From a virus, in the IMG/VR virus record IMGVR_UViG_3300047297_000049, positions 1 through 23,459 of that record: DNA of 23,459 bases; one strand, written 5' to 3'. The notes under the pieces were generated by a model. That model saw only the letters and a list, made by a program, of their open reading frames with translations. It had not been told where the DNA came from and searched no databases. A program made the translations under genes and the position numbers. Shown in pieces: positions 2,423 through 22,514 of this stretch. Every line of letters begins with the position of its first letter. Position 1 is the first letter of the stretch.

Positions 2423-3409
2423 ATGTCCCTTTTCATTCAATCTGCTAACGCATTGGTAAGTCGTGTAGCACAGTGGGTGGGGGCAATTCCTCAAAGCACT
2501 GCCATCACGGCTACTGCTTATAACTCGACTACTGGTGTCATTACGGTATCTTCTACGCCTGTTGCCACGATCCTTGCTGGTGACTTTATTGGCGTATCCA
2601 AAATGGACTCTTTTACAGCCGTGTTGTCTACAACCAGCACGACTATTACTGTGTCTGACCCTGATGGCGTTTGGAGTAGCGCTACCTATCCTTTGACCAT
2701 TTTAATGCTGCCATCTCAGTCTGCTTTGGAAATCCAGACATCGATTCAGTTGGCAGAGTTGAAGATGCGTACTTTGGAGTTGCCCGGTTTGCGTACCAAT
2801 CCTTATGGCAACACTCCCACTATTTTGACTACTAATTCTCAAGGCATGGCTCCTATCCCTGCGGATATGAACATTCCTATTTTGTTTTTCCAAGAGACTC
2901 CTAACTCAGATGTTGCTCCCGGCACACCTGCTGCCAGCATGGGTCCTTGGATCATTTATGACCGTGTTGGTGACCGTGAGATTATTCGTCGCCGCATGAT
3001 TGACCAACTGTATGTGCGTCCTTTTGGTGTGCCTCGTGTAATTCGTGCCAGCTTTTCTGAAGTTGGACCTAATTACATTTTTACGCCAAACCCCGGTGGT
3101 AACACAACCATCAAGGCTTACTACATTCGCACGTTTTCTTTCTTGTTTAGTCCTACTGAAGACGAACTTGAGCCACTTGTGCAAAGCAATGCTGTGTTGA
3201 CTTCCTTCCCTGAAGGTTATTTGTATGGAACTTTGTGGGCTTATTACGACAAGAATAAGAACACTGCTGAATCACAAAAGTGGTTGGGCAGATTCGATGA
3301 TTCGTATGGTCTGATTGAAGACCAGTACAACAAAGGCCGCTGGAAGGGTGGCGACCAACACTTGACTAGCGAGTTCCAACCTAGGGACTATCGCTATAGC
3401 TTCAGATAA
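2423..3409 (+). CDS. Head-tail adaptor protein, SU10-like
   Basis: A 328-aa protein. The first 100 residues are a beta-rich Ser/Thr region (TTGVITVSSTP, TTITVSDPDGVWSS); after it come LRTNPYGN, PIPADMNIPILFF, then DREIIRRRMIDQLYVRPFG and an aromatic C-terminus (YIRTFSFLF, PEGYLYGTLWAYYDKNKN). The RRRMIDQ-Y block plus the helical ending with ALYYGTL-like residues is what I associate with the SU10/phiEco32-type adaptor that sits on the portal and receives the nozzle. Position after an SU10-type capsid supports this. GGAAGAG precedes the ATG by 4 bases. Assignment from recollection of the family, not from a search. Confidence 0.65.
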   Translation: MSLFIQSANALVSRVAQWVGAIPQSTAITATAYNSTTGVITVSSTPVATILAGDFIGVSKMDSFTAVLSTTSTTITVSDPDGVWSSATYPLTILMLPSQSALEIQTSIQLAELKMRTLELPGLRTNPYGNTPTILTTNSQGMAPIPADMNIPILFFQETPNSDVAPGTPAASMGPWIIYDRVGDREIIRRRMIDQLYVRPFGVPRVIRASFSEVGPNYIFTPNPGGNTTIKAYYIRTFSFLFSPTEDELEPLVQSNAVLTSFPEGYLYGTLWAYYDKNKNTAESQKWLGRFDDSYGLIEDQYNKGRWKGGDQHLTSEFQPRDYRYSFR

Positions 3410-3418
3410 GGAAGAAAC

Positions 3419-5974
3419 ATGGCAACAAGCAGCATTTACACAGCCAGTGAGACTGTTGGTCTGTACGGTATTGGTTCACCCGGTGGCACGTACTTTGAGT
3501 GGTTTATTTTTTATGATTCAGCCACTGCGCCAGCAACTCCTACAGGCGGTTCTTGGAGTTTCTCTACTAATACTGGTACTACTCCAACTGGCTGGGTAGC
3601 TTCTCCACCTCCAAGTCCTACAAACCTTGTATGGGTGTCTATTGCTGTTGTTGACTCACGCAGCACTGGTGACCTGACTTGGTCTACACCCGGTTTGATG
3701 ACAGGTACTGGTTTGCCAGTGTTGACAGGTGCTGGCGTGCCTTCTTCTGGTACTGGTTTAAACACTCAGTTGTATTTGGACACATCTACAACTCCACAGT
3801 CTTTGTATAACAAGCAGTCTGGTACTTGGGTGCAGATTACTGGTTCTACCTTGTACGCTCTTGCTGGCGCTAACGCCAACATTACGTCTTTGACAGGTCT
3901 TACTGGCGGTGTTTCTACTGTTGATTATGTTGACTTTGACACAACTTACTCAACTACTTTAACTGCTGGAAGATTAGGCTGGGATGGTAACAATACGCTT
4001 GGCCTAGGTATGGCAGGTGGTAACGTTGTTCAGCATATTGGTGAAGATGTTTACTATTACGTCAAAGCTTCTGCCACGATTACCAAAGGCCAACTCTGTA
4101 TGTTTACAGGGGCTGTTGGTGCATCTGGTGTAGTGACCGCTGCTCCTGCCACTGGCGTGACAAATGGTCAGTACATTATGGGTGTTGCTGCCGAGGATAT
4201 TGCCAACAATGCATTTGGTTTAATTACTTGGTTTGGTGTTATCCACAACGTAAATACAAATTCGTTTGCTGAAGGCGATATTCTTTATTACAACTCTGCG
4301 GTAGCTGGTGGGTTTACAAATGTATTTCCAACAAGCGGTCCTATTGTTCTTGCAGCTGCTGTAGCCAAATCTGGCACAGGATCTGGAGTTTTGCAAGTTC
4401 GTGTATCTGTAACACAGCGTATTACTTCTGGCACAGGCATTACTGTTACTCAAGGTTCTACAGGCACTGCATTGGCAATTGATAGCACTGTTGCTACTTT
4501 GACAGGCACTCAAACCCTGACAAACAAAACAATCAATGCTGCAAACAACACTATCACCAACATTCCAAATGCTTCATTGGTATATGACAGCGTAAACATT
4601 AACAGTGTTGACTTTACCCTTGGTAACGTTCAGCTGGTGGGTCCTGATTGGATTTTGCCTAGTTATGCAGGTAACGCAGGTAAAGTGTTGACTGTTAACC
4701 CATCTGCCAACGATGTGCAATGGAATGCAGTTAGCGGTACAGGTACTGTAACCAGTATTGATGTATCTGGTGGTACTACAGGTTTAACAACAACTGGTGG
4801 ACCTATTACTGCGGCTGGCACTATTACTATTGGTGGCACTTTGGCTTTGGCAAGTGGCGGTACAGGCGCTACTACAGCCTCTGGTGCTCGTGGCGCTCTT
4901 GGATTGGGCACTGCTGCTGAACTAAATGCTGGTGTGGCAGGTGGCGTGGCTACCTTGGACGGTGGTGGCACTGTTCCTACATCTCAGTTACCTGCTGCTG
5001 TATTGGGCGCTTTAAAGTATCAAGGTACTTGGGATGCAAACGCTAACAGCCCTACCCTTGCTTCTAGTGTTGGCACACAAGGTTACTACTATGTGGTGTC
5101 TGTAGCAGGTTCAACCAACCTAAACGGCATTACAGATTGGAAGATTGGCGATTGGGCTATTTACAGTGGCACTGCTTGGCAAAAGATTGATAACACTGAT
5201 GCTGTTACATCTGTTAACGGCTACACAGGTACGGTTGTACTGTCTTACAGCGATGTAGGAGCTCCTTCTACCTCTGGCACTAATGCTACAGGCACATGGG
5301 GTATTGGTATTACTGGTAACGCAGGTACTGTGACTAACGGTGTATATACAAATGGTTCATATGCTGATCCATCTTGGATTACATCATTATCGACTACTAA
5401 GTTGTCAGGCACTGTAACCAATGCTCAATTGGCAAATAGCTCAGTAACCTTTGGTACAACAACTGTTGCACTAGGTGCTACAAGCTTGTCTTTGGGTGGT
5501 TTGACTACATTAGATGCAACTGGAGATGTAACGTTTACTGCCACATCTGCTGTTCAAATGCCTAAAGGCACAACTGGTCAGCGTCCTACTGGTGTAGCAG
5601 GTAAGTTGCGGTTTAACACAACAACTGCTGAGTTTGAAGGATATAACGGCACTGCTTGGGCAAGTGTTGGTGGTTCTGCAATTAGCAACGACACAAGCAC
5701 ATCGACAAACCTTTATCCCTTGTTTGCTGCTGCTACTAGTGGCACTGCATCAAGTGTATATACAAGCAATGCTCAATATTTGTTTAAGCCTTCTACTGGT
5801 GAGTTGAGTGTCAAAGCTCCAGTGGCAGCAAACGGTATTGTGGTGAACGCAGATTCTGTGACAAGTAACTACACTATTGCAACAGGAACAAATGGTTTCT
5901 CTGTTGGCCCATTGACTGTGGCAAGCGGTGTATCTCTAACTGTTGCAAGCGGTCAACGCCACGTAATCATTTAA
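3419..5974 (+). CDS. Multidomain tail fibre protein
   Basis: An 851-aa Gly/Thr/Ser-rich structural protein with several recognisable phage-fibre modules in order: an N-terminal beta region (1-115); a module at about 206-333 (EDVYYYVKASATITKGQL to the LQVRVSV strand) that recurs in many phage fibres; the LTGTQTLTNKTINAANNTI motif at about 360-378; the tail-repeat motif ASGGTGATTASGARGALGL near 478; a YQGTWDANANSPTL...GDWAIYSGTAWQKID module at about 535-595; and a KGTTGQRP...NTTTAEFEGYNGTAW motif near 716-750. It ends in VASGVSLTVASGQRHVII. It is the first of four fibre genes and probably the largest trimeric adhesin or its scaffold. GGAAGAAAC precedes the ATG. Confidence 0.85.
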   Translation: MATSSIYTASETVGLYGIGSPGGTYFEWFIFYDSATAPATPTGGSWSFSTNTGTTPTGWVASPPPSPTNLVWVSIAVVDSRSTGDLTWSTPGLMTGTGLPVLTGAGVPSSGTGLNTQLYLDTSTTPQSLYNKQSGTWVQITGSTLYALAGANANITSLTGLTGGVSTVDYVDFDTTYSTTLTAGRLGWDGNNTLGLGMAGGNVVQHIGEDVYYYVKASATITKGQLCMFTGAVGASGVVTAAPATGVTNGQYIMGVAAEDIANNAFGLITWFGVIHNVNTNSFAEGDILYYNSAVAGGFTNVFPTSGPIVLAAAVAKSGTGSGVLQVRVSVTQRITSGTGITVTQGSTGTALAIDSTVATLTGTQTLTNKTINAANNTITNIPNASLVYDSVNINSVDFTLGNVQLVGPDWILPSYAGNAGKVLTVNPSANDVQWNAVSGTGTVTSIDVSGGTTGLTTTGGPITAAGTITIGGTLALASGGTGATTASGARGALGLGTAAELNAGVAGGVATLDGGGTVPTSQLPAAVLGALKYQGTWDANANSPTLASSVGTQGYYYVVSVAGSTNLNGITDWKIGDWAIYSGTAWQKIDNTDAVTSVNGYTGTVVLSYSDVGAPSTSGTNATGTWGIGITGNAGTVTNGVYTNGSYADPSWITSLSTTKLSGTVTNAQLANSSVTFGTTTVALGATSLSLGGLTTLDATGDVTFTATSAVQMPKGTTGQRPTGVAGKLRFNTTTAEFEGYNGTAWASVGGSAISNDTSTSTNLYPLFAAATSGTASSVYTSNAQYLFKPSTGELSVKAPVAANGIVVNADSVTSNYTIATGTNGFSVGPLTVASGVSLTVASGQRHVII

Positions 5975-5983
5975 GGAAAACGC

Positions 5984-7090
5984 ATGTCAACGATCAGCGC
6001 ATCAACCACATCCACAACCGCATACAAAGTTACTGCGGATACCACAGGCACATTGGTGCTACAGACAGGTGCTACGCCTACTACAGCGGTTACTATTGGC
6101 ACAGATCAGTCTGTTACAACAGCAGGAACCATCAACGGCTTAACAGTCGGCAAAGGCGCTGGCGCTCAAACAAACTCGACTGCTGTTGGTAATGGCGCTT
6201 TAGCAGCATCAAATAGTGGTCAGTCTACCGCTTTGGGTTTCAACGCATTAACTGCAAACACCACAGGAAGAAACATTGGTGTTGGTCATTATTCGCTGTC
6301 TACAAACACCACAGGAACATTAAACAATGCGTTTGGTGATACTGCTCTTTACTACAACACCACAGGCTCAAACAACACAGCCGTAGGTGTTTCTGCCCTT
6401 CAGTCCAACACCACAGCAAGCAACAACACCGCTGTTGGTTATCTAGCGCTAGCCTCAAGCACCACGGTGAGCAACAACACCGCTGTTGGTTATTACGCTG
6501 GGTATCTCTCAACAGCTAGCGGTACATACGGCAACGTATTCATTGGCGCTGTTGCTGGCTACGGGAACTCTTCTGGCGGGGATAACGTCTACATTGGTGG
6601 ACGGGCAGCAGTAAACGCCAGCACAGGTTCAGGAAACATCGCAATTGGATGGCGTGCGGGTAGTGATGAAACTGGCTCAATTTTTAACATCGCCACCAAC
6701 AACGACCGAATTGTTATTGGTTCAAACAACACGACAAACGCATACATCAAAGTTGCTTGGACAGTCACATCAGATGCTCGTGATAAAGCGGATGTAGCAA
6801 ATGCAGTTTACGGTCTTAACTTTGTAAACGGACTAAGACCAGTAACTTTTGTATGGGATGAGCGTTCCAACTATGACAGCGGAGTGCCAGACGGAAGCAA
6901 AAAGAAAACCAAAACACAAATTGGCTTTTTGGCGCAAGAAGTCATTGCACTTGACTCTGACTTACTTATTGCCGACAACGAACAAGAAGATAAGTTAAAA
7001 ATTACAGAAACAAAACTGATTCCTGCTTTGGTAAAAGCCATCCAAGAACTCAAAGCAGAATTTGACGCATACAAGGAAGCACACCCATGA
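5984..7090 (+). CDS. Tail fibre with YadA-like repeats and C-terminal S74 chaperone
   Basis: A 368-aa trimeric fibre. Residues 1-50 form an N-terminal module shared with the 7306 gene (LVLQTGATPTTAVTIGTDQS). Residues 66-227 hold about ten repeats of 16-19 residues of the type TAVGxxAL-xNTTxSNN, as in YadA-like adhesin heads. Residues 263-368 are an intramolecular chaperone (peptidase S74): the SDARDK motif places Ser263 and Lys268 in the expected S-D-x-R-x-K self-cleavage dyad, followed by QIGFLAQEV and a C-terminal helix. In this family the chaperone folds the trimer and then cuts itself off. Ends with an ATGA overlap to the next gene. Confidence 0.92.
   Translation: MSTISASTTSTTAYKVTADTTGTLVLQTGATPTTAVTIGTDQSVTTAGTINGLTVGKGAGAQTNSTAVGNGALAASNSGQSTALGFNALTANTTGRNIGVGHYSLSTNTTGTLNNAFGDTALYYNTTGSNNTAVGVSALQSNTTASNNTAVGYLALASSTTVSNNTAVGYYAGYLSTASGTYGNVFIGAVAGYGNSSGGDNVYIGGRAAVNASTGSGNIAIGWRAGSDETGSIFNIATNNDRIVIGSNNTTNAYIKVAWTVTSDARDKADVANAVYGLNFVNGLRPVTFVWDERSNYDSGVPDGSKKKTKTQIGFLAQEVIALDSDLLIADNEQEDKLKITETKLIPALVKAIQELKAEFDAYKEAHP
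6419..6493 (+). repeat. Direct repeat inside YadA-like fibre repeats
   Basis: Two identical 24-base copies at 6419-6442 and 6470-6493, offset 51 bases (17 codons), coding for SNNTAVGY in each unit. The copies match at the DNA level as well as the protein level, which suggests recent unit duplication or recombination. Confidence 0.85.
7031..7086 (+). repeat. Repeated S74 C-terminal segment, copy 1
   Basis: The last 56 coding bases before the stop of the first S74 fibre align without gaps to 10112-10167 in the second S74 fibre, with 44 of 56 bases identical. Both encode VKAIQEL..FxAYK..HP. It is a possible recombination site for exchanging fibres. Confidence 0.75.
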
Positions 7091-7302
7091 ACGACTTAAC
7101 TCCTGAACAGCAAATCGCCAAGCACTACGCTGCTTGCATGGACAGCGTGAACCTCATCAATGGTGGCAAGCCTGAACGCATGACAGACGACGAATGGGCT
7201 TACTGCCTTGCAAGGAACAAAGAGCACTTACGTCTGATGCTGGCTAAAGACTTTTGGACGAATGAAGATTTAACACCGCTGCAACAAGCGGCAGGAGAAT
7301 AA
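7087..7302 (+). CDS. Small tail-fibre-linked protein, unknown function
   Basis: A 71-aa acidic, soluble protein (MNDLTPEQQIAKHYAAC at the start, MLAKDFWTNEDLTPLQQA at the end) whose start overlaps the stop of the S74 fibre (ATGA). Proteins with this AKDFWT-ED-TPLQ ending commonly follow S74 fibres in phages I recall; no function is established to my knowledge. Translational coupling and position suggest a fibre accessory or assembly factor. No membrane segment. Confidence 0.75.
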   Translation: MNDLTPEQQIAKHYAACMDSVNLINGGKPERMTDDEWAYCLARNKEHLRLMLAKDFWTNEDLTPLQQAAGE

Positions 7303-7305
7303 ATA

Positions 7306-7989
7306 ATGCCAAGCATCATCCTTTCTGACAATGGCGTATCAAGCGGCTCTGCTGGACTGAAGTCTACGGCTGCAAGCGATGGCTCTTTAGCGTTACAAAC
7401 TACTACGGCGGGTGGTACAGCTACTACTGCTGTAAGCATCGACACAAGCCAGAATGTCACAATGGCTGGAAGAACAACAAACCCAACAACAATTTCTGTT
7501 GGCGGCGCAACACCATCATCTTCTGGTTCTGGTATCACTTTCCCCGCAACTCAATCAGCATCAACTGACGCAAACACGCTGGATGATTATGAGGAAGGGA
7601 CTTGGACACCGATTTACTCTACTGATGGCACACAGCCAACGGTTTCTTATGCCGCGCAAGTTGGTCGATACACAAAAGTGGGGCGGCTTGTGACCTGTTT
7701 TGTTCGTATTGCAAGGTCTTCATCTTCCGGTGGGAGTGGAAGCATTTACATAGGAGGGCTGCCCTTTGCGGCAGCTTCAACATTTACTTACGGGCAACCG
7801 ACTAGAACTGCGTCTTGGAATTGGACTCCAGCAAGCCCTGATTACAAAGTGGAAACGCTTTATGTAGTTCCCTCAGCTACTACTGTAGGCTTGTGGGACC
7901 TTTCAACAAACGTCATTAACGTATCAGTTCTTAATGCTGCAACAAATGCGGCCACGGTTGTCGCTGTGTTTTCGTACATGACTGATTAA
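7306..7989 (+). CDS. Short tail fibre / receptor-binding protein
   Basis: A 227-aa protein. Residues 1-55 (SLALQTTTAGGTATTAVSID..QNVTMAG) resemble the N-terminal module of the 5984 fibre, probably a common attachment part. A linker leads to TDANTLDDYEEGTWTPIYS at about 87-105, a junction motif seen before C-terminal beta domains of phage fibres, followed by a beta-rich Ser/Gly/Tyr domain (106-227) likely to contact the receptor. There is no S74 domain. It lies 3 bases after the previous gene with GGAG 9 bases upstream. Confidence 0.8.
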   Translation: MPSIILSDNGVSSGSAGLKSTAASDGSLALQTTTAGGTATTAVSIDTSQNVTMAGRTTNPTTISVGGATPSSSGSGITFPATQSASTDANTLDDYEEGTWTPIYSTDGTQPTVSYAAQVGRYTKVGRLVTCFVRIARSSSSGGSGSIYIGGLPFAAASTFTYGQPTRTASWNWTPASPDYKVETLYVVPSATTVGLWDLSTNVINVSVLNAATNAATVVAVFSYMTD

Positions 7990-8036
7990 CCCATAGTCAG
8001 ACCAGATTAGTTTGACCAGACACAAAGGAAACAAAA

Positions 8037-8309
8037 ATGTCACTCACCAAAACAAATACTGTGGACCAAATTACAGTAACAGAAAACGGCACAGTTCTAT
8101 ACCGTGAAGCAACACGCATCATGGAAGACGGCAACGAGATCAGCCAAACATACCACCGCACTTCATTGACGCCCGGTCAAGACCTCACAGGTCAACCCGC
8201 CAACGTGGTTGCAATTTGCAACGCAGCTTGGACAAGTGAAGTTGTTGCTGCATACGAAGCTGCACAAGCTGCTGCCGCTGCTGCACGTCAAGCTCCACAA
8301 GGAGAATAA
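8037..8309 (+). CDS. Small tail-region protein, unknown function
   Basis: A 90-aa protein: a beta-rich half (TVDQITVTENGTVLYREAT, then MEDGNEISQTYHR) and an Ala-rich helical end (EAAQAAAAAARQAPQGE). I recall similar small proteins beside phage fibre genes, with the same TEISxTxHR and PGxDxTGQ features, but no function. AAAGGAAAC precedes the ATG by 5-6 bases. The preceding 47-base gap carries two copies of GACCAGA (8000-8006, 8014-8020) and nothing else recognised. Confidence 0.75.
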   Translation: MSLTKTNTVDQITVTENGTVLYREATRIMEDGNEISQTYHRTSLTPGQDLTGQPANVVAICNAAWTSEVVAAYEAAQAAAAAARQAPQGE

Positions 8310-8312
8310 AAC

Positions 8313-8987
8313 ATGGCGCATAGCGTCTATTGGATTCGCTGCCAAGACCACACTGACATGACAAGTCAGGGGTACATTGGCGTGTCTGCTCGATTCAATA
8401 GGCGCATGTGGGAGCATTTAAACCTCAATGGCAATAGGCATCTCACGTTTGCGATCGACAAGTATGGTTGGGATAATTTAATCAAAAGCCAAATCCTGAT
8501 CGCTGATGAAGAATACTGTTTGGACATCGAGCGTAAGTTGCGTCCTGCTGATGGCATTGGTTGGAACTGCGTGTCTGGTGGTGGTAAACCGCCAAGTTCA
8601 TTGGGCAAGCGTTTTGTGCGAACCAAGCCAGCTTGGAACAAAGGCTTGAAAATGTCAGACGAAACCCGCGCAAAGGTCAGCAAGGCGGCTAAAGAGCAGT
8701 GGGAGAGGCCGGGCATGAAGGAACTTTTGTCGTCGCTTAGAAAAGGCAAGCCATGTCCTATGAAGGGCAAGAGGCACAGCCCTGAGTCGATTGAAAAGAT
8801 GCGCCTTGCCAAGATTGGCAAAGTGTCAAAGAAAAAAGGTAAGCTGTTGACTGATGAGCAAAAAGCCAATCTGTCTGCGCTTGCAAGAAAGAATCCGTGG
8901 ACTTGTCCACATTGTCAAACTGTTGGACACCAAAGGGGCGCTGGCAATCGTTGGCACTTCGATAACTGTAAGGAAAAAGTATTATGA
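8313..8987 (+). CDS. Freestanding GIY-YIG homing endonuclease with NUMOD3 motifs and zinc finger
   Basis: A 224-aa site-specific DNA endonuclease that likely spreads its own gene by cutting related phage DNA. N-terminal GIY-YIG nuclease: VYW at 5-7, GYIG at 20-23, Arg residues at 27 and 30 with EH at 34-35, catalytic Glu candidate 73-74 in DIERKLRP, GWNCVSGG at 83-90. Then NUMOD3-type DNA-binding repeats at about 92-125 (GKRF..PAWNKGLKMSDETR) and 145-170 (GKPCPMKGKRHSPESIEKM). The C-terminus is a Cys2-His-Cys zinc motif: C198, C201, H215, C219. All key positions are present, so it looks intact. It sits inside the fibre cluster and overlaps the next fibre gene by ATGA. Confidence 0.93.
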   Translation: MAHSVYWIRCQDHTDMTSQGYIGVSARFNRRMWEHLNLNGNRHLTFAIDKYGWDNLIKSQILIADEEYCLDIERKLRPADGIGWNCVSGGGKPPSSLGKRFVRTKPAWNKGLKMSDETRAKVSKAAKEQWERPGMKELLSSLRKGKPCPMKGKRHSPESIEKMRLAKIGKVSKKKGKLLTDEQKANLSALARKNPWTCPHCQTVGHQRGAGNRWHFDNCKEKVL

Positions 8988-10171
8988 CGGTCATTATTTC
9001 GGGCAGCACAGGCATCACCGATGTAAACGGATCAGCCGCAGCACCTGCTATTACAGGTACAGACACAGACACAGGTGTGTTCTTTGGAACCAACACAGTT
9101 TCGCTTTCAACAGGCGGTACTGAGCGTTTGCAGATTGATTCTTCTGGCAACTTAGGTCTTGGTGTTACGCCTAGTGCTTGGAGTCAGTTAAAAGGTTTTC
9201 AATTAGTTGGTGGGTCTTCTGTAGCATCCCAGACAAATGCGCTGTATCTATTGAATAATGCTTTTTATGATGGCTCTGCTTGGAAATATATAAACACTTC
9301 CGCAGCTACACGACTTGATTTAAGCGGAGGTGCTGCAACTTTTTACAACGCAGCCTCAGGCACAGCAGGTAACACAATCACCTTCACCCAAGCAATGACG
9401 CTTGATGCTAGTGGGAATTTGGGTTTAGGGGTTACAAGCCCTTACTCTTTGGTAAAGCAAGATGTTCAAATTGCGTCAGCCACAACAAATTGGGCATTGA
9501 ACGTCAGATCGTATGACGCAGGTACTGGTGATGGTACGACAACGGCTAAAGTCCTACGCACAGTAAACAGCGGAAACGGTAATTGGGCTGTTGCTCAATA
9601 TGATGCTTGGGCACACATTTGGACTAAAGCAGGAACTGAAACTGCCCGTATCGACTCCAGCGGTAACTTGCTGGTGGGGAAAACCACAACTTCAGGAACT
9701 ACCGTTGGTTTTGCTTATATAAACGGTTCTTCTGTTCAATATGCTCAATCTGCCTCTACAAACGCAAACAGTACTTGGGAAACATACTCAACTGGTGCAG
9801 GTGCGTATCGTTTCTATGTTGGCATGGGTGGAACAATTTATGCCACTAGCACAACGATCACCGCAATTTCTGACCAACGCCTAAAAGAAAACATCCAAGA
9901 CCTTGATGTAGGTCTTGACGCTGTGATGGCGCTCAAGCCTCGCAAGTTTGATTGGAAAGAAGGAAAAGGCAAAAACAAAAAAGGTGATCGTGGCTGGATT
10001 GCTCAAGAGTTTGAGCAAGTCTTTCCTGACATGATTGATGAGTGGCGTGATCCTGCACCAGAAGGAGAGGAGCCTTACAAGGCAGTCAACGCTGATCTTA
10101 TTCCCGTACTTGTCAAAGCCATCCAAGAACTTAACGCTAAGTTTGAAGCCTACAAAGCCACACACCCATAA
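8984..10171 (+). CDS. Second tail fibre with C-terminal S74 chaperone
   Basis: A 395-aa fibre. The N-terminus (ISGSTGITDVNGSAAAPAI) and the recurring SSGNLGLGVT / ASGNLGLGVT / DSSGNLLVGKTT strand-turn motifs at about 53, 142 and 225 mark a beta-structured shaft. Residues 296-395 are an S74 intramolecular chaperone: SDQRLK gives Ser296 and Lys301, then LKPRKFDWKEG, GWIAQEFEQVFPDM and a C-terminal helix very like that of the 5984 fibre. Self-release of the chaperone after trimer folding is expected. Its start lies within the end of the homing endonuclease gene, so translation may be coupled to it; AAGGAAAAAG lies just upstream. Confidence 0.92.
   Translation: MTVIISGSTGITDVNGSAAAPAITGTDTDTGVFFGTNTVSLSTGGTERLQIDSSGNLGLGVTPSAWSQLKGFQLVGGSSVASQTNALYLLNNAFYDGSAWKYINTSAATRLDLSGGAATFYNAASGTAGNTITFTQAMTLDASGNLGLGVTSPYSLVKQDVQIASATTNWALNVRSYDAGTGDGTTTAKVLRTVNSGNGNWAVAQYDAWAHIWTKAGTETARIDSSGNLLVGKTTTSGTTVGFAYINGSSVQYAQSASTNANSTWETYSTGAGAYRFYVGMGGTIYATSTTITAISDQRLKENIQDLDVGLDAVMALKPRKFDWKEGKGKNKKGDRGWIAQEFEQVFPDMIDEWRDPAPEGEEPYKAVNADLIPVLVKAIQELNAKFEAYKATHP
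10112..10167 (+). repeat. Repeated S74 C-terminal segment, copy 2
   Basis: Partner of 7031-7086: an ungapped 56-base alignment with 44 identities, at the end of the second S74 fibre gene. Confidence 0.75.
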
Positions 10172-10182
10172 TAAGGACTGAC

Positions 10183-10260
10183 ATGACTATCGCTATAACA
10201 TGGACAATCAACAACCTAGAACGTCAAACCTCTGATGGTCTTGTAACCGTAGTGCATTGA
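10183..10260 (+). pseudogene. Truncated relic of a small tail-region protein (DUF7936-like N-terminus)
   Basis: A 25-codon frame starting MTIAITWTINNLERQTSDG and stopping right after VVH. I recognise this start from tail-linked proteins of roughly 100 aa in other phages (the TWxIxNLERQTSDGxVTxxHW pattern, a family I recall as DUF7936), where a Trp follows the His. Here the next codon is TGA and the following bases are already the ribosome site of the next gene, so the rest appears deleted. AAGGA lies upstream of its ATG, so the peptide may still be made. The family name is from memory. Confidence 0.6.
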
Positions 10261-10270
10261 AAGGAAACGC

Positions 10271-10420
10271 ATGATTAAACTAGAACTATCCATTGAAGCA
10301 GTTAATTTCATCCTTGGAACCCTTGGTGAGCTTCCTAGCAAAACAGGGGCTTGGCCTTTGATTATGCAGATCAAGGAACAAGCTGAACCTCAAGTTCCCA
10401 AAGATCAGCCAGCCGAATAA
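10271..10420 (+). CDS. Small protein of tail region, unknown function
   Basis: A 49-aa frame (MIKLELSIEAVNFILGTLG at the start, PQVPKDQPAE at the end) with AAAGGAAACGC directly before the ATG. Small proteins beginning MIKLEL-IE-VN-IL-LG are frequent near phage fibre genes in my recollection, with unknown function. Predicted amphipathic helix at 5-22, no membrane segment. It fills the space between the fibre cluster and the nozzle gene. Confidence 0.65.
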   Translation: MIKLELSIEAVNFILGTLGELPSKTGAWPLIMQIKEQAEPQVPKDQPAE

Positions 10421-10429
10421 AATGCTGCC

Positions 10430-12055
10430 ATGAGCGCTCAGTACACCCCAATTCGCACCCCGTTTCCGGTCATGTCCTTTTCTCCGGACATACCGAGTAA
10501 CGCCCTTAGCCCTAATGAGTACAACTCAGGGTTAAACGTTGAGTGCGATGTTCGGGGGGTAAAAAAGGTAGCAGGGGAACAAGCTATTCTTTCTGCCATA
10601 CCCGGTAACCCTGTTTACTGGGAAGGTGGCTTTAGAGGTGCTACTTGGACCTATATTGCTGCCACCCGTGAAGGCAAATGGTATGCCGTTACCTCTGGAG
10701 GTATAACAAACATTACCCCCGGCGTTGGCGCCAATCCTAATGTTGCCTTGTCTGGCTACTCTGATGACGTAAACATTACCTCCTCTTGGGTGGGTAGTGT
10801 TTTCTTTATCAACGATGGTTTGCGTCCTCCAATGTATTTCTTGCCCACTGCGACAGAGATCTACATTTATGACGCTGCACCTGACAACTATGTCTGGAAC
10901 TACGAATCTACTCTGTCTCCAGCCGTTACCTCGGTCACCGCTGGGTTTGTTCGTAACTACTGTTCTCCTAACGTTGGCAACATTTTGGTGGCTGGCAACC
11001 TGACCAAAACTTTCAGCATTGGCACAACAGTTAACTACCCTACGACTATCCGTTGGTCACAGGCGTTTGCTAATACTGGCGTACCTGCCACTTGGTCACC
11101 AACCCTGAATAACGTGGCTAACGAGCAAGAGATTCCCTTGCGTGGCCCGATCATTGATGGCTTTTTCCTTGGGGCTAACTTCTACATTTGCAGCTATTGG
11201 GACACCGTTGTGATGACCCCAATTGCCTACCAAAACAGCACCGCTCCTGTCTTTGGGGTTCGCCTGTTTAACCAAGGTCGTGGGTTGCTAAACAACAACT
11301 GCTGGTCTAACACTGACTCTGAAGTCTACGGTCTAGATAGCCGAGATATCTGGGTTTTTGACGGTTCTAACTTTACCCCTCTGGGCAACCAAAGGGTCAA
11401 GAATTACTTCTATTCAAACTTGAATAAGACGTATTCAACACGCACATTCATGGTCAACAACACCCAGAAGAATCAGATCGAGATCTATTATCCTGACCTG
11501 ACCTCTACTGGCTGGTGCAACAAGATGTTGTCGTACCGTTATGACCTTAAGATTTGGAATGCTCCCAAAGATGTGCAGAATGCCTGTATGGGAACCGAGG
11601 GTCCTGTGTACGAGTCTTCTGCCTTCACATATGCCTCTAGAACGGTCACATACGCCCGTGGAGGCGTGGCAGCACAGCAGCCAGTACAAACAGGTGTAAC
11701 CAATGGATTTAGCGGTTCTGCTATTCCCTGTTTGTTTGAGCGCAAGAATGCTACTTTGCAGACGGAAGAAGGTCCTGTGCCTTATTCTGCCAAAGTGTAT
11801 GTACACCGTGTTTTGCCTGAAGTGTCTGGTACTGGCAAGATCTCTGTGACCGTGGGTGGCGCTAACTCTACGGCTCAGGAACCTACATATGGGACTGCCA
11901 CCACTATGGATATTGTGACCGACAACCCTTGGGTGACCACTACTCAAAACTCTGTACGTACCGTGTCTGTGAAGATTGAATCAAATGATGCTACAGATAC
12001 TTGGAATGTACCTGCCTTGAACTGGCAAGCCACTGTTACAGAGGATGCGTTCTAA
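10430..12055 (+). CDS. Tail nozzle / DNA-stabilisation-like protein
   Basis: A 541-aa virion protein. Early residues SPDIPSNALSPNEYNSGLN, then the GVKKVAGEQAIL block, RPPMYFLP (about 128-135), then NYPTTIRWSQAFANTGVPAT (about 200-220) and a run of beta strands with SYWDTVVM, ending in a Thr/Val-rich domain, resemble the propeller-like nozzle or packaged-DNA stabilisation proteins that close the podovirus tail. An adaptor upstream and the ejection genes downstream fit. There is no clear ribosome site before the ATG at 10430; a nearby start at ATG 10472 (VMSFSPD) has none either. Confidence in a tail protein is high, in nozzle moderate. Confidence 0.7.
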   Translation: MSAQYTPIRTPFPVMSFSPDIPSNALSPNEYNSGLNVECDVRGVKKVAGEQAILSAIPGNPVYWEGGFRGATWTYIAATREGKWYAVTSGGITNITPGVGANPNVALSGYSDDVNITSSWVGSVFFINDGLRPPMYFLPTATEIYIYDAAPDNYVWNYESTLSPAVTSVTAGFVRNYCSPNVGNILVAGNLTKTFSIGTTVNYPTTIRWSQAFANTGVPATWSPTLNNVANEQEIPLRGPIIDGFFLGANFYICSYWDTVVMTPIAYQNSTAPVFGVRLFNQGRGLLNNNCWSNTDSEVYGLDSRDIWVFDGSNFTPLGNQRVKNYFYSNLNKTYSTRTFMVNNTQKNQIEIYYPDLTSTGWCNKMLSYRYDLKIWNAPKDVQNACMGTEGPVYESSAFTYASRTVTYARGGVAAQQPVQTGVTNGFSGSAIPCLFERKNATLQTEEGPVPYSAKVYVHRVLPEVSGTGKISVTVGGANSTAQEPTYGTATTMDIVTDNPWVTTTQNSVRTVSVKIESNDATDTWNVPALNWQATVTEDAF

Positions 12056-21654: not shown

Positions 21655-22272
21655 TTAGGCGGGTTTCGCCTTCTTTATCGCTGATCGAATACCAGCACTC
21701 ATTTGGTTAGACAACCAAATCTCTTGATCAGACTCAAGGGCAGACTCCTTGATCATCTGATATGCCTCGAGGGCTTTACCTGCGTTGACTAGGTCTATGC
21801 AGGATTGGGCCATCTCGCGCAAAAACTCTTTCTCTTCTTCTGGCAGATCGTCACCGATACCATGTCTTGGGGTCACCGTGGATGCGCCATTCTTGCTGCC
21901 TGTTGTAGCGTCCAAGGCATCGTGTTCAACGATTTCAAGCGCTGCAACCCACAAATAGCGTCGGAGGTATGTTTGTACCGCCCCAAGGTTTTGGACCTCG
22001 TGACAGCCCTTTAAAGCCGCTGTAGACATGGGTGACGATATAACGATAGTCTCTTCTGGCTTTTCGGTGTTGACAATCGTCATTGTGGCGTACTCAGAGT
22101 CGAAGCTGATGATCGATGTTAAACCAACGTCCTTAAAAATTTCGAGGGCGGGGATAACAAAGTCACCCAGTTCAAAGTAGTTGTAGCCAGCAAACTTGTT
22201 GTGGCCTGACTTCTTTAGCTGACGGCTGTGGAAACGCTCACGAGCGTGGTTGAGTTTTGTGTAGATGTTCAT
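21655..22272 (-). CDS. erf: ERF-family single-strand annealing recombinase
   Basis: A 205-aa protein that pairs complementary DNA strands in phage recombination or genome circularisation. Start at ATG 22272 (AAGGAAATCC upstream; overlaps the previous stop by ATGA). Family features: MNIYTKLNHARERFHSRQLK, SGHNKFAGYNYFELGDFVIP, ALEIFKDVGL, then the strand TMTIVN and the hallmark GAVQTYLRRYLWVAALEI at 97-114, matching the G-A-x-TYARRY-x-L pattern. The C-terminal third is acidic and helical. The partner SSB-like gene lies 9 bases downstream. Confidence 0.88.
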   Translation of the reverse strand: MNIYTKLNHARERFHSRQLKKSGHNKFAGYNYFELGDFVIPALEIFKDVGLTSIISFDSEYATMTIVNTEKPEETIVISSPMSTAALKGCHEVQNLGAVQTYLRRYLWVAALEIVEHDALDATTGSKNGASTVTPRHGIGDDLPEEEKEFLREMAQSCIDLVNAGKALEAYQMIKESALESDQEIWLSNQMSAGIRSAIKKAKPA

Positions 22273-22514
22273 TGGATTTCCTTTATCTTTGCATCGATTT
22301 GGCTTTGCGTTAGACCATCCTGAAGGAAGGCGCATTCAATTTCCCAGTTAATGATGTTGCGCTGGTCATCATCATCCAAGTCAGCAAACGTGACGAAGTG
22401 GTTTTCACCACAGCACCCGACACCGCTACGAACATCACCGCAGTAGCAGCAATACTCTTGGCTGGATTGCATGAATTCTTGTTTGTACTCTTCGTACAGG
22501 CTTTGCATTTTCAT
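22269..22514 (-). CDS. Small Cys-rich putative zinc-binding protein
   Basis: An 81-aa acidic protein. Residues 22-41 (CCYCGDVRSGVGCCGENHFV) hold five Cys and a His in a tight cluster that could bind one zinc; the rest is helical with DLDDDDQRNIINWEIECAFL. I recall similar YCGD-x5-GCCGENHF proteins next to phage recombination genes. It overlaps both neighbours by ATGA. Function unknown. Confidence 0.75.
   Translation of the reverse strand: MKMQSLYEEYKQEFMQSSQEYCCYCGDVRSGVGCCGENHFVTFADLDDDDQRNIINWEIECAFLQDGLTQSQIDAKIKEIQ

Follow-up and report, generated by a model that had tools for sequence, protein, structure and literature searches.

A free-standing GIY-YIG homing endonuclease family probably specialised on the starts of phage tail-fibre genes

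Free-standing GIY-YIG homing endonuclease genes (HEGs) such as the seg genes of phage T4 lie outside introns and inteins beside their target genes, occur sporadically and probably spread by cutting and repair (PMC2988022), all of which applies to the family described here. The T4 seg genes are located between genes, and their cut sites are described at distances of hundreds to thousands of bases (PMC2988022), whereas the present family lies in the first codons of its target and, unlike seg, appears to take over the target's start signal and to carry a replacement start. I-TevI of phage T4 shares the GIY-YIG catalytic fold and a zinc site (PMC10448857), but it is intron-encoded, whereas in the HEG studied here the zinc site is C-terminal and the linker consists of NUMOD3 repeats. 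The mobE gene in nrdA of phage Aeh1 is likewise a HEG within a phage coding gene whose function is kept, but nrdA is split into two reassembling parts (PMC2988022), while here a new start would restore one whole protein. The HEG islands of ICP1-like phages resemble our case in that HEGs mark exchange borders beside essential genes; these HEGs are mostly of the T5orf172 or HNH type, and the available part of the source contains no stubs or start regeneration for them (PMC10448857). In the mobile ORFs of fungal mitochondria (Allomyces atp6; Glomus atp6, atp9, cox2, and nad3), an endonuclease gene and a foreign gene end are inserted into a coding gene, and the displaced native end is kept as a duplicate that is conserved in protein and diverged in DNA, e.g., 63.5% at the nucleotide and 91% at the amino acid level for Glomus atp6 (PMC3630166). 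The fungal elements replace the C-terminus, whereas the phage HEGs described here would replace the N-terminus together with start codon and ribosome site, i.e., a mirror image.

The DNA analysed (the window) is a 23,459-base IMG/VR virus record. It belongs to a tailed phage whose head genes are 79% identical in DNA to those of a related Manatee Spring Podoviridae genome, and its HEG lies in a hypervariable fibre island with fixed borders. The relevant features are as follows:

2423-3409, head-tail adaptor gene, flanking the fibre island on one side
3419-10430, fibre island, 3.9 to 8.1 kb in 27 relatives
5984-7090, plus strand, S74 fibre gene with unoccupied start (PF13884, E=1.9e-9)
7306-7989, plus strand, adjoining fibre gene with unoccupied start (MPSIILSDNGVSSGSAG)
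8037-8309, plus strand, small gene upstream of the HEG (PHROG 6228, unknown function, E=1.4e-21)
8299-8304, plus strand, AAGGAG Shine-Dalgarno sequence, presently used by the HEG (read from the sequence)
8313-8987, plus strand, HEG with GIY-YIG domain, NUMOD3 repeats, and CCHC zinc site
8319-8537, plus strand, GIY-YIG catalytic domain (Pfam PF01541, 23.4 bits in the DNA search)
8718-8804, plus strand, best NUMOD3 repeat, residues 136-164 (Pfam PF07460, E=3.2e-9), with NUMOD3-like repeats on both sides
8904-8969, plus strand, CCHC zinc site (C198, C201, H215, C219)
8970-8974, plus strand, AAGGA Shine-Dalgarno sequence in the HEG 3' end, serving the fibre gene (read from the sequence)
8984-10171, plus strand, host fibre gene with C-terminal peptidase S74 chaperone domain (PF13884, E=1.1e-16; tail-fibre PHROGs)
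8984-9010, plus strand, putative regenerated fibre start, codons 1-9 (MTVIISGST), from comparison with stubs ending at the same codon and with the L308/L311 junction
10430-12055, tail accessory gene, flanking the fibre island on the other side
21655-22335, minus strand, ERF-superfamily single-strand annealing recombinase (E=8e-10)

The PHROG 6228 protein encoded at 8037-8309 is very common (561 confirmed stretches). Its gene usually stands directly 3' of a fibre C-terminal part like that at 7306-7989 in unrelated freshwater phages, and is a partner in a mobile fibre module. In one relative (L320), the HEG is placed inside a fibre start of the same type as that of the adjoining gene at 7306-7989.

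With respect to the protein, the first-pass annotation had described an intact GIY-YIG/NUMOD3/zinc-finger homing endonuclease, and the ORF of 224 amino acids was found where it had been placed. This description is borne out by the domain searches, the catalytic residues, and a structure model, with the correction that motif A reads VYW instead of GIY (VYW...YIG). The GIY-YIG score was slightly below the Pfam cut-off of 22.6 bits when searched as protein (21.8 bits), but above it in the DNA search, and the Pfam match is present in 43 of 49 family members. Two NUMOD3 stretches pass the 0.01 threshold and a third is weaker. The zinc ligands are retained in 47 to 48 of the 49 relatives, while the catalytic positions Y6, G20, Y21, G23, R31, H35, E73, and N85 are invariant in all 49, i.e., a loss of catalytic residues among relatives, which would have spoken against the early description, was not seen. 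PHROG 314, 'homing endonuclease', was matched with E=8e-25. The AlphaFold model (pLDDT 83.9) has the I-TevI catalytic domain (1mk0) as its top Foldseek match, with a probability of 1.00 and a target TM of 0.63, but with E=0.022. Residues and modelled fold thus point to membership in the GIY-YIG nuclease superfamily. Purifying selection acts on the whole protein (dN/dS 0.06 to 0.32). The HEG is a continuous ORF between two genes, and the fibre ORF is intact from 8984, which places the HEG outside an intron or intein.

Of 80 loci from the phage's own family, 27 have a fully covered fibre island, and none of these related phages carries the nuclease, while one scan of virus contigs yielded 191 confirmed stretches of the nuclease family; the presence of the HEG is hence sporadic and horizontal, in line with a selfish nuclease. 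For comparison, a set of 63 non-redundant family HEGs was compiled via their own protein and not via their flanks. All 63 end between -28 and +2 nucleotides from the downstream start codon, and in 62 the downstream gene has a fibre-type N-terminal motif, e.g., MSLILDGTTG, MASIVIAGDTSG, or MASTINASTSG. One scan of genome contigs gave two HEG matches, one of them without a fibre gene downstream; this locus, L402, is a family HEG in the contig of a Burkholderiales metagenome-assembled genome and the only one of the 63 with a non-fibre downstream gene. Shine-Dalgarno-like sequences are present in the nuclease 3' ends, and the HEG tails of L244, L245, L247, and L248 contain the same AAGGA element as the window. 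In the window the HEG stop codon (8985-8987) and the fibre start (8984) form an ATGA overlap; this fusion to a receptor-binding gene, pointed out in the first-pass annotation, is real and part of a family-wide layout, the exact 4-nucleotide form of which occurs in 13 of 63 HEGs. As a background rate, junctions this close were counted for 15 of 31 pairs of adjacent genes in two phages. The linkage of the HEGs to fibre genes is far above chance. Two scans with fibre bodies, which were blind to the nuclease, found a HEG in front of 14 of 207 fibre-type starts, query contigs included.

Alleles without the HEG reveal where the element sits. In four HEG-free loci with the gene order of the window (L162, L211, L221, and L177), the upstream gene is directly followed by the fibre start. 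The ribosome site borne by the 3' end of the small upstream gene serves the fibre directly in such relatives, and in L162 the sequence CAAGGAGAATAACC-ATG of the fibre gene stands at the same place as the Shine-Dalgarno sequence at 8299-8304, which was probably captured from the fibre gene by the HEG. Both flanks of 21 HEGs could be aligned to HEG-free loci, resulting in 67 pairs. In 25 pairs the ATGs of HEG and fibre fall on the same nucleotide, and in 49 they are at most 5 nucleotides apart, while two-flank offsets far from zero (13 to 32 nucleotides) were observed in L285, L291, and L262. For HEGs lacking a stub, permutation support for start capture is modest (p=0.016). Between the HEG-bearing L009 and the empty L305, the first 120 nucleotides of the fibre gene are 68% identical in DNA, compared to 97% for the next 510. 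HEG-free alleles, the absence of which had been named as a potential objection, are therefore documented. The insertion point was to be sought between 8037 and 8984; empty loci were indeed found, but the point proved to be the fibre start. A separate scan with the fibre body of the window itself found no relative and hence no close empty allele of its site, so that the empty counterparts of the window match in gene order and type only.

About a quarter of the members retain an upstream copy of the first 7 to 25 fibre codons, which ends where the regenerated start meets the remainder of the gene. In these loci, which are metagenome contigs and possibly chimeric, stubs score at least 20 in 17 of 63 cases (16 of them credible) as opposed to 1.4% at random places (p=1e-17). 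Of the stub and regenerated codons for the same amino acid, 65% differ in DNA. In L248, for instance, MTVTINGTT precedes the HEG and MTVTISGTT-G follows it; further stubs are present in L257, L253, L259, L287, L319, L320, and others, and those of L320 and L319 continue in frame into the nuclease. A seeming stub in L308 was rejected as spurious, since the match was shifted. Apart from the start codon itself, the window HEG retains no stub. Fibre codons 1-9 of the window end at the same codon as the stubs in L248, L253, L257, and L259, which leads us to predict the homing and junction region at about 9008-9013. Together with the cultured phage MEP301 (see below), the 16 credible stubs among 63 HEGs indicate that the HEG brings along a replacement end for the gene it occupies, the native end of which persists as a duplicate, the replaced end apparently being the N-terminus and not the C-terminus.

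Overall, we consider it likely that these genes form a family of free-standing GIY-YIG HEGs that has specialised on fibre gene 5' ends in phages and homes in with capture and regeneration of the start. The enzyme would target the conserved DNA coding for the fibre N-terminal motif and cut it near fibre codon 9 (about 9008-9013 in the window) in HEG-free alleles of co-infecting phages, and repair would copy the HEG into the first fibre codons, possibly aided over short homologies by the ERF recombinase encoded at 21655-22335 on the minus strand. The HEG would then begin at the fibre start codon or a few codons later on the ribosome site of the fibre, and its 3' end would supply the fibre with another ribosome site and start codon and with recoded first codons, while the old fibre start would remain as a stub or shrink to the first codons of the HEG. 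Due to the recoded replacement start the whole fibre would still be made and the enzyme's own target presumably be destroyed, and because this start is supplied behind the HEG, the element could spread through changeable fibre genes without breaking them.

It is unlikely, albeit compatible with such homing and not exclusive of it, that the nuclease is retained mainly as a weapon against the fibre genes of competitors, with mobility being secondary. Purifying selection across the whole protein would suit this role, and so would the fact that the target is conserved and the gene essential; a precedent is the intron endonuclease of PhiPA3, which interferes with a competitor phage (PMC11620839). 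However, the absence from all 27 close relatives, i.e., the sporadic presence, the many sites, and the recent jumps are better suited to selfish spread.

The first-pass annotation had proposed that the nuclease could carry the neighbouring fibre allele into competing phages, with host range and homing being inherited jointly. The HEG is always physically linked to fibre genes, and co-conversion of flanks and marker exclusion are established for phage HEGs (PMC2988022), but the fibre body is nearly uncoupled from the HEG. The HEGs of L308 and L311, loci from different metagenomes, differ by 2 nucleotides (99% identity), and the identity spans the first HEG codons up to fibre codon 8; both outer flanks are unrelated and the fibre bodies are 34% identical, i.e., the HEG has recently moved between unrelated contexts. 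A shared block up to fibre nucleotide +90 was considered for this pair and discarded, as the alignment puts the end of the identity at codon 8. In the pairs L274/L279 and L012/L284 the left boundary is the same and the right boundary lies 30 to 40 codons into the fibre gene; with right-hand junctions ranging from about 8 to 40 codons, the transferred unit is not sharply fixed. The closely related phages L266, L267, L268, and L271 share the upstream gene, the HEG, and an identical fibre N-terminus, with bodies 38 to 55% identical, which represents a body exchange immediately 3' of the HEG. Near-identical HEGs occur on fibre bodies with 26 to 55% identity, and HEG identity correlates much better with the fibre N-terminus (Spearman 0.34) than with the body, which it barely follows (0.14). 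On the HEG tree the N-terminal motif types change 6 times compared to 26 in shuffles, with labels that were assigned by pattern and are arguable in three to four cases (L257, L012/L284, L320). HEG identity and tree follow the N-terminal motif, which indicates that specificity resides in the conserved anchor-coding DNA and that the body is not co-inherited over evolutionary time. The constant linkage to fibre genes was accordingly retained from the proposal, whereas only the N-terminal motif is tracked and host range is not shown to travel with homing. As a general explanation, the joint spread of nuclease and fibre allele is rather improbable, but more of the fibre gene may be co-converted in a single co-infection in the short term. 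An ordinary intergenic free-standing HEG, whose fibre overlap would reflect the usual compact packing of phage genes, is very improbable. In its favour, roughly one in two pairs of adjacent genes is as tightly spaced in two of these phages, and several T4 seg/mob genes between genes overlap a neighbour (PMC2988022), but it is disfavoured by a stub frequency 20 times that at random places, by the recoded duplicates, by HEG ATGs on fibre ATGs, and by the same gene class in 62 of 63 cases.

Fibre-start homing is also relevant for the cultured OM43 phage MEP301 (L243, MW452941), whose HEG gp20 (4971-5552) is fused in frame to a fibre stub. The product of gp20 begins with MASIKLQGDTS-LYW... (stub MASIKLQGDT) and that of the fibre gene gp19 with MASIKLQGDVSG... 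(MASIKLQGDV), and phage MEP402 has a HEG-free homologue. The authors of MEP301 proposed that gp20 assists in host DNA degradation (PMC8024684); judged from the sequence, its anatomy favours a homing element over such a role. Distant GIY-YIG/NUMOD3 relatives (27 to 37% identity) have a stub and a regenerated start at non-fibre genes (L051, L045, L070, L072, L054, and L018), e.g., with 13 of 13 amino acids repeated in L051 (5235-6192) and with the HEG before an SmpB-like start in L045 (5559-6372). Stub and restart at other genes suggest that this mode is general for such phage HEGs, although the distant cases were scored without a formal null. In L060 (429-920), a HEG relative with 28% identity is located directly 5' of a homologue of the window gene 1904-2413, with an ATGA overlap and in the same phage family.

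The enzyme family is already known, while a description of start-replacing phage HEGs was not found in searches of open-access papers in PMC, which is not proof of their absence. On balance, we lean towards a large, unnamed class of phage homing elements at translation starts, which would capture the start signal, block re-cutting by recoded codons, and spread among genes that share only an N-terminal motif, fibres above all. If true, the class would mirror, at the N-terminus, the mitochondrial HEGs that replace the C-terminus. Annotators should be aware that a start region is common to many fibre genes and HEGs, and that a short stub upstream is a relic rather than a gene. A selfish nuclease can inhabit an essential, fast-changing gene without an intron or intein. 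Double-strand breaks would fall where the conserved anchor of the fibres meets their exchangeable receptor-binding part, and with such a targeted break where fibre modules join, nuclease-driven fibre shuffling becomes directly testable in culture with MEP301 and its HEG-free relative MEP402.
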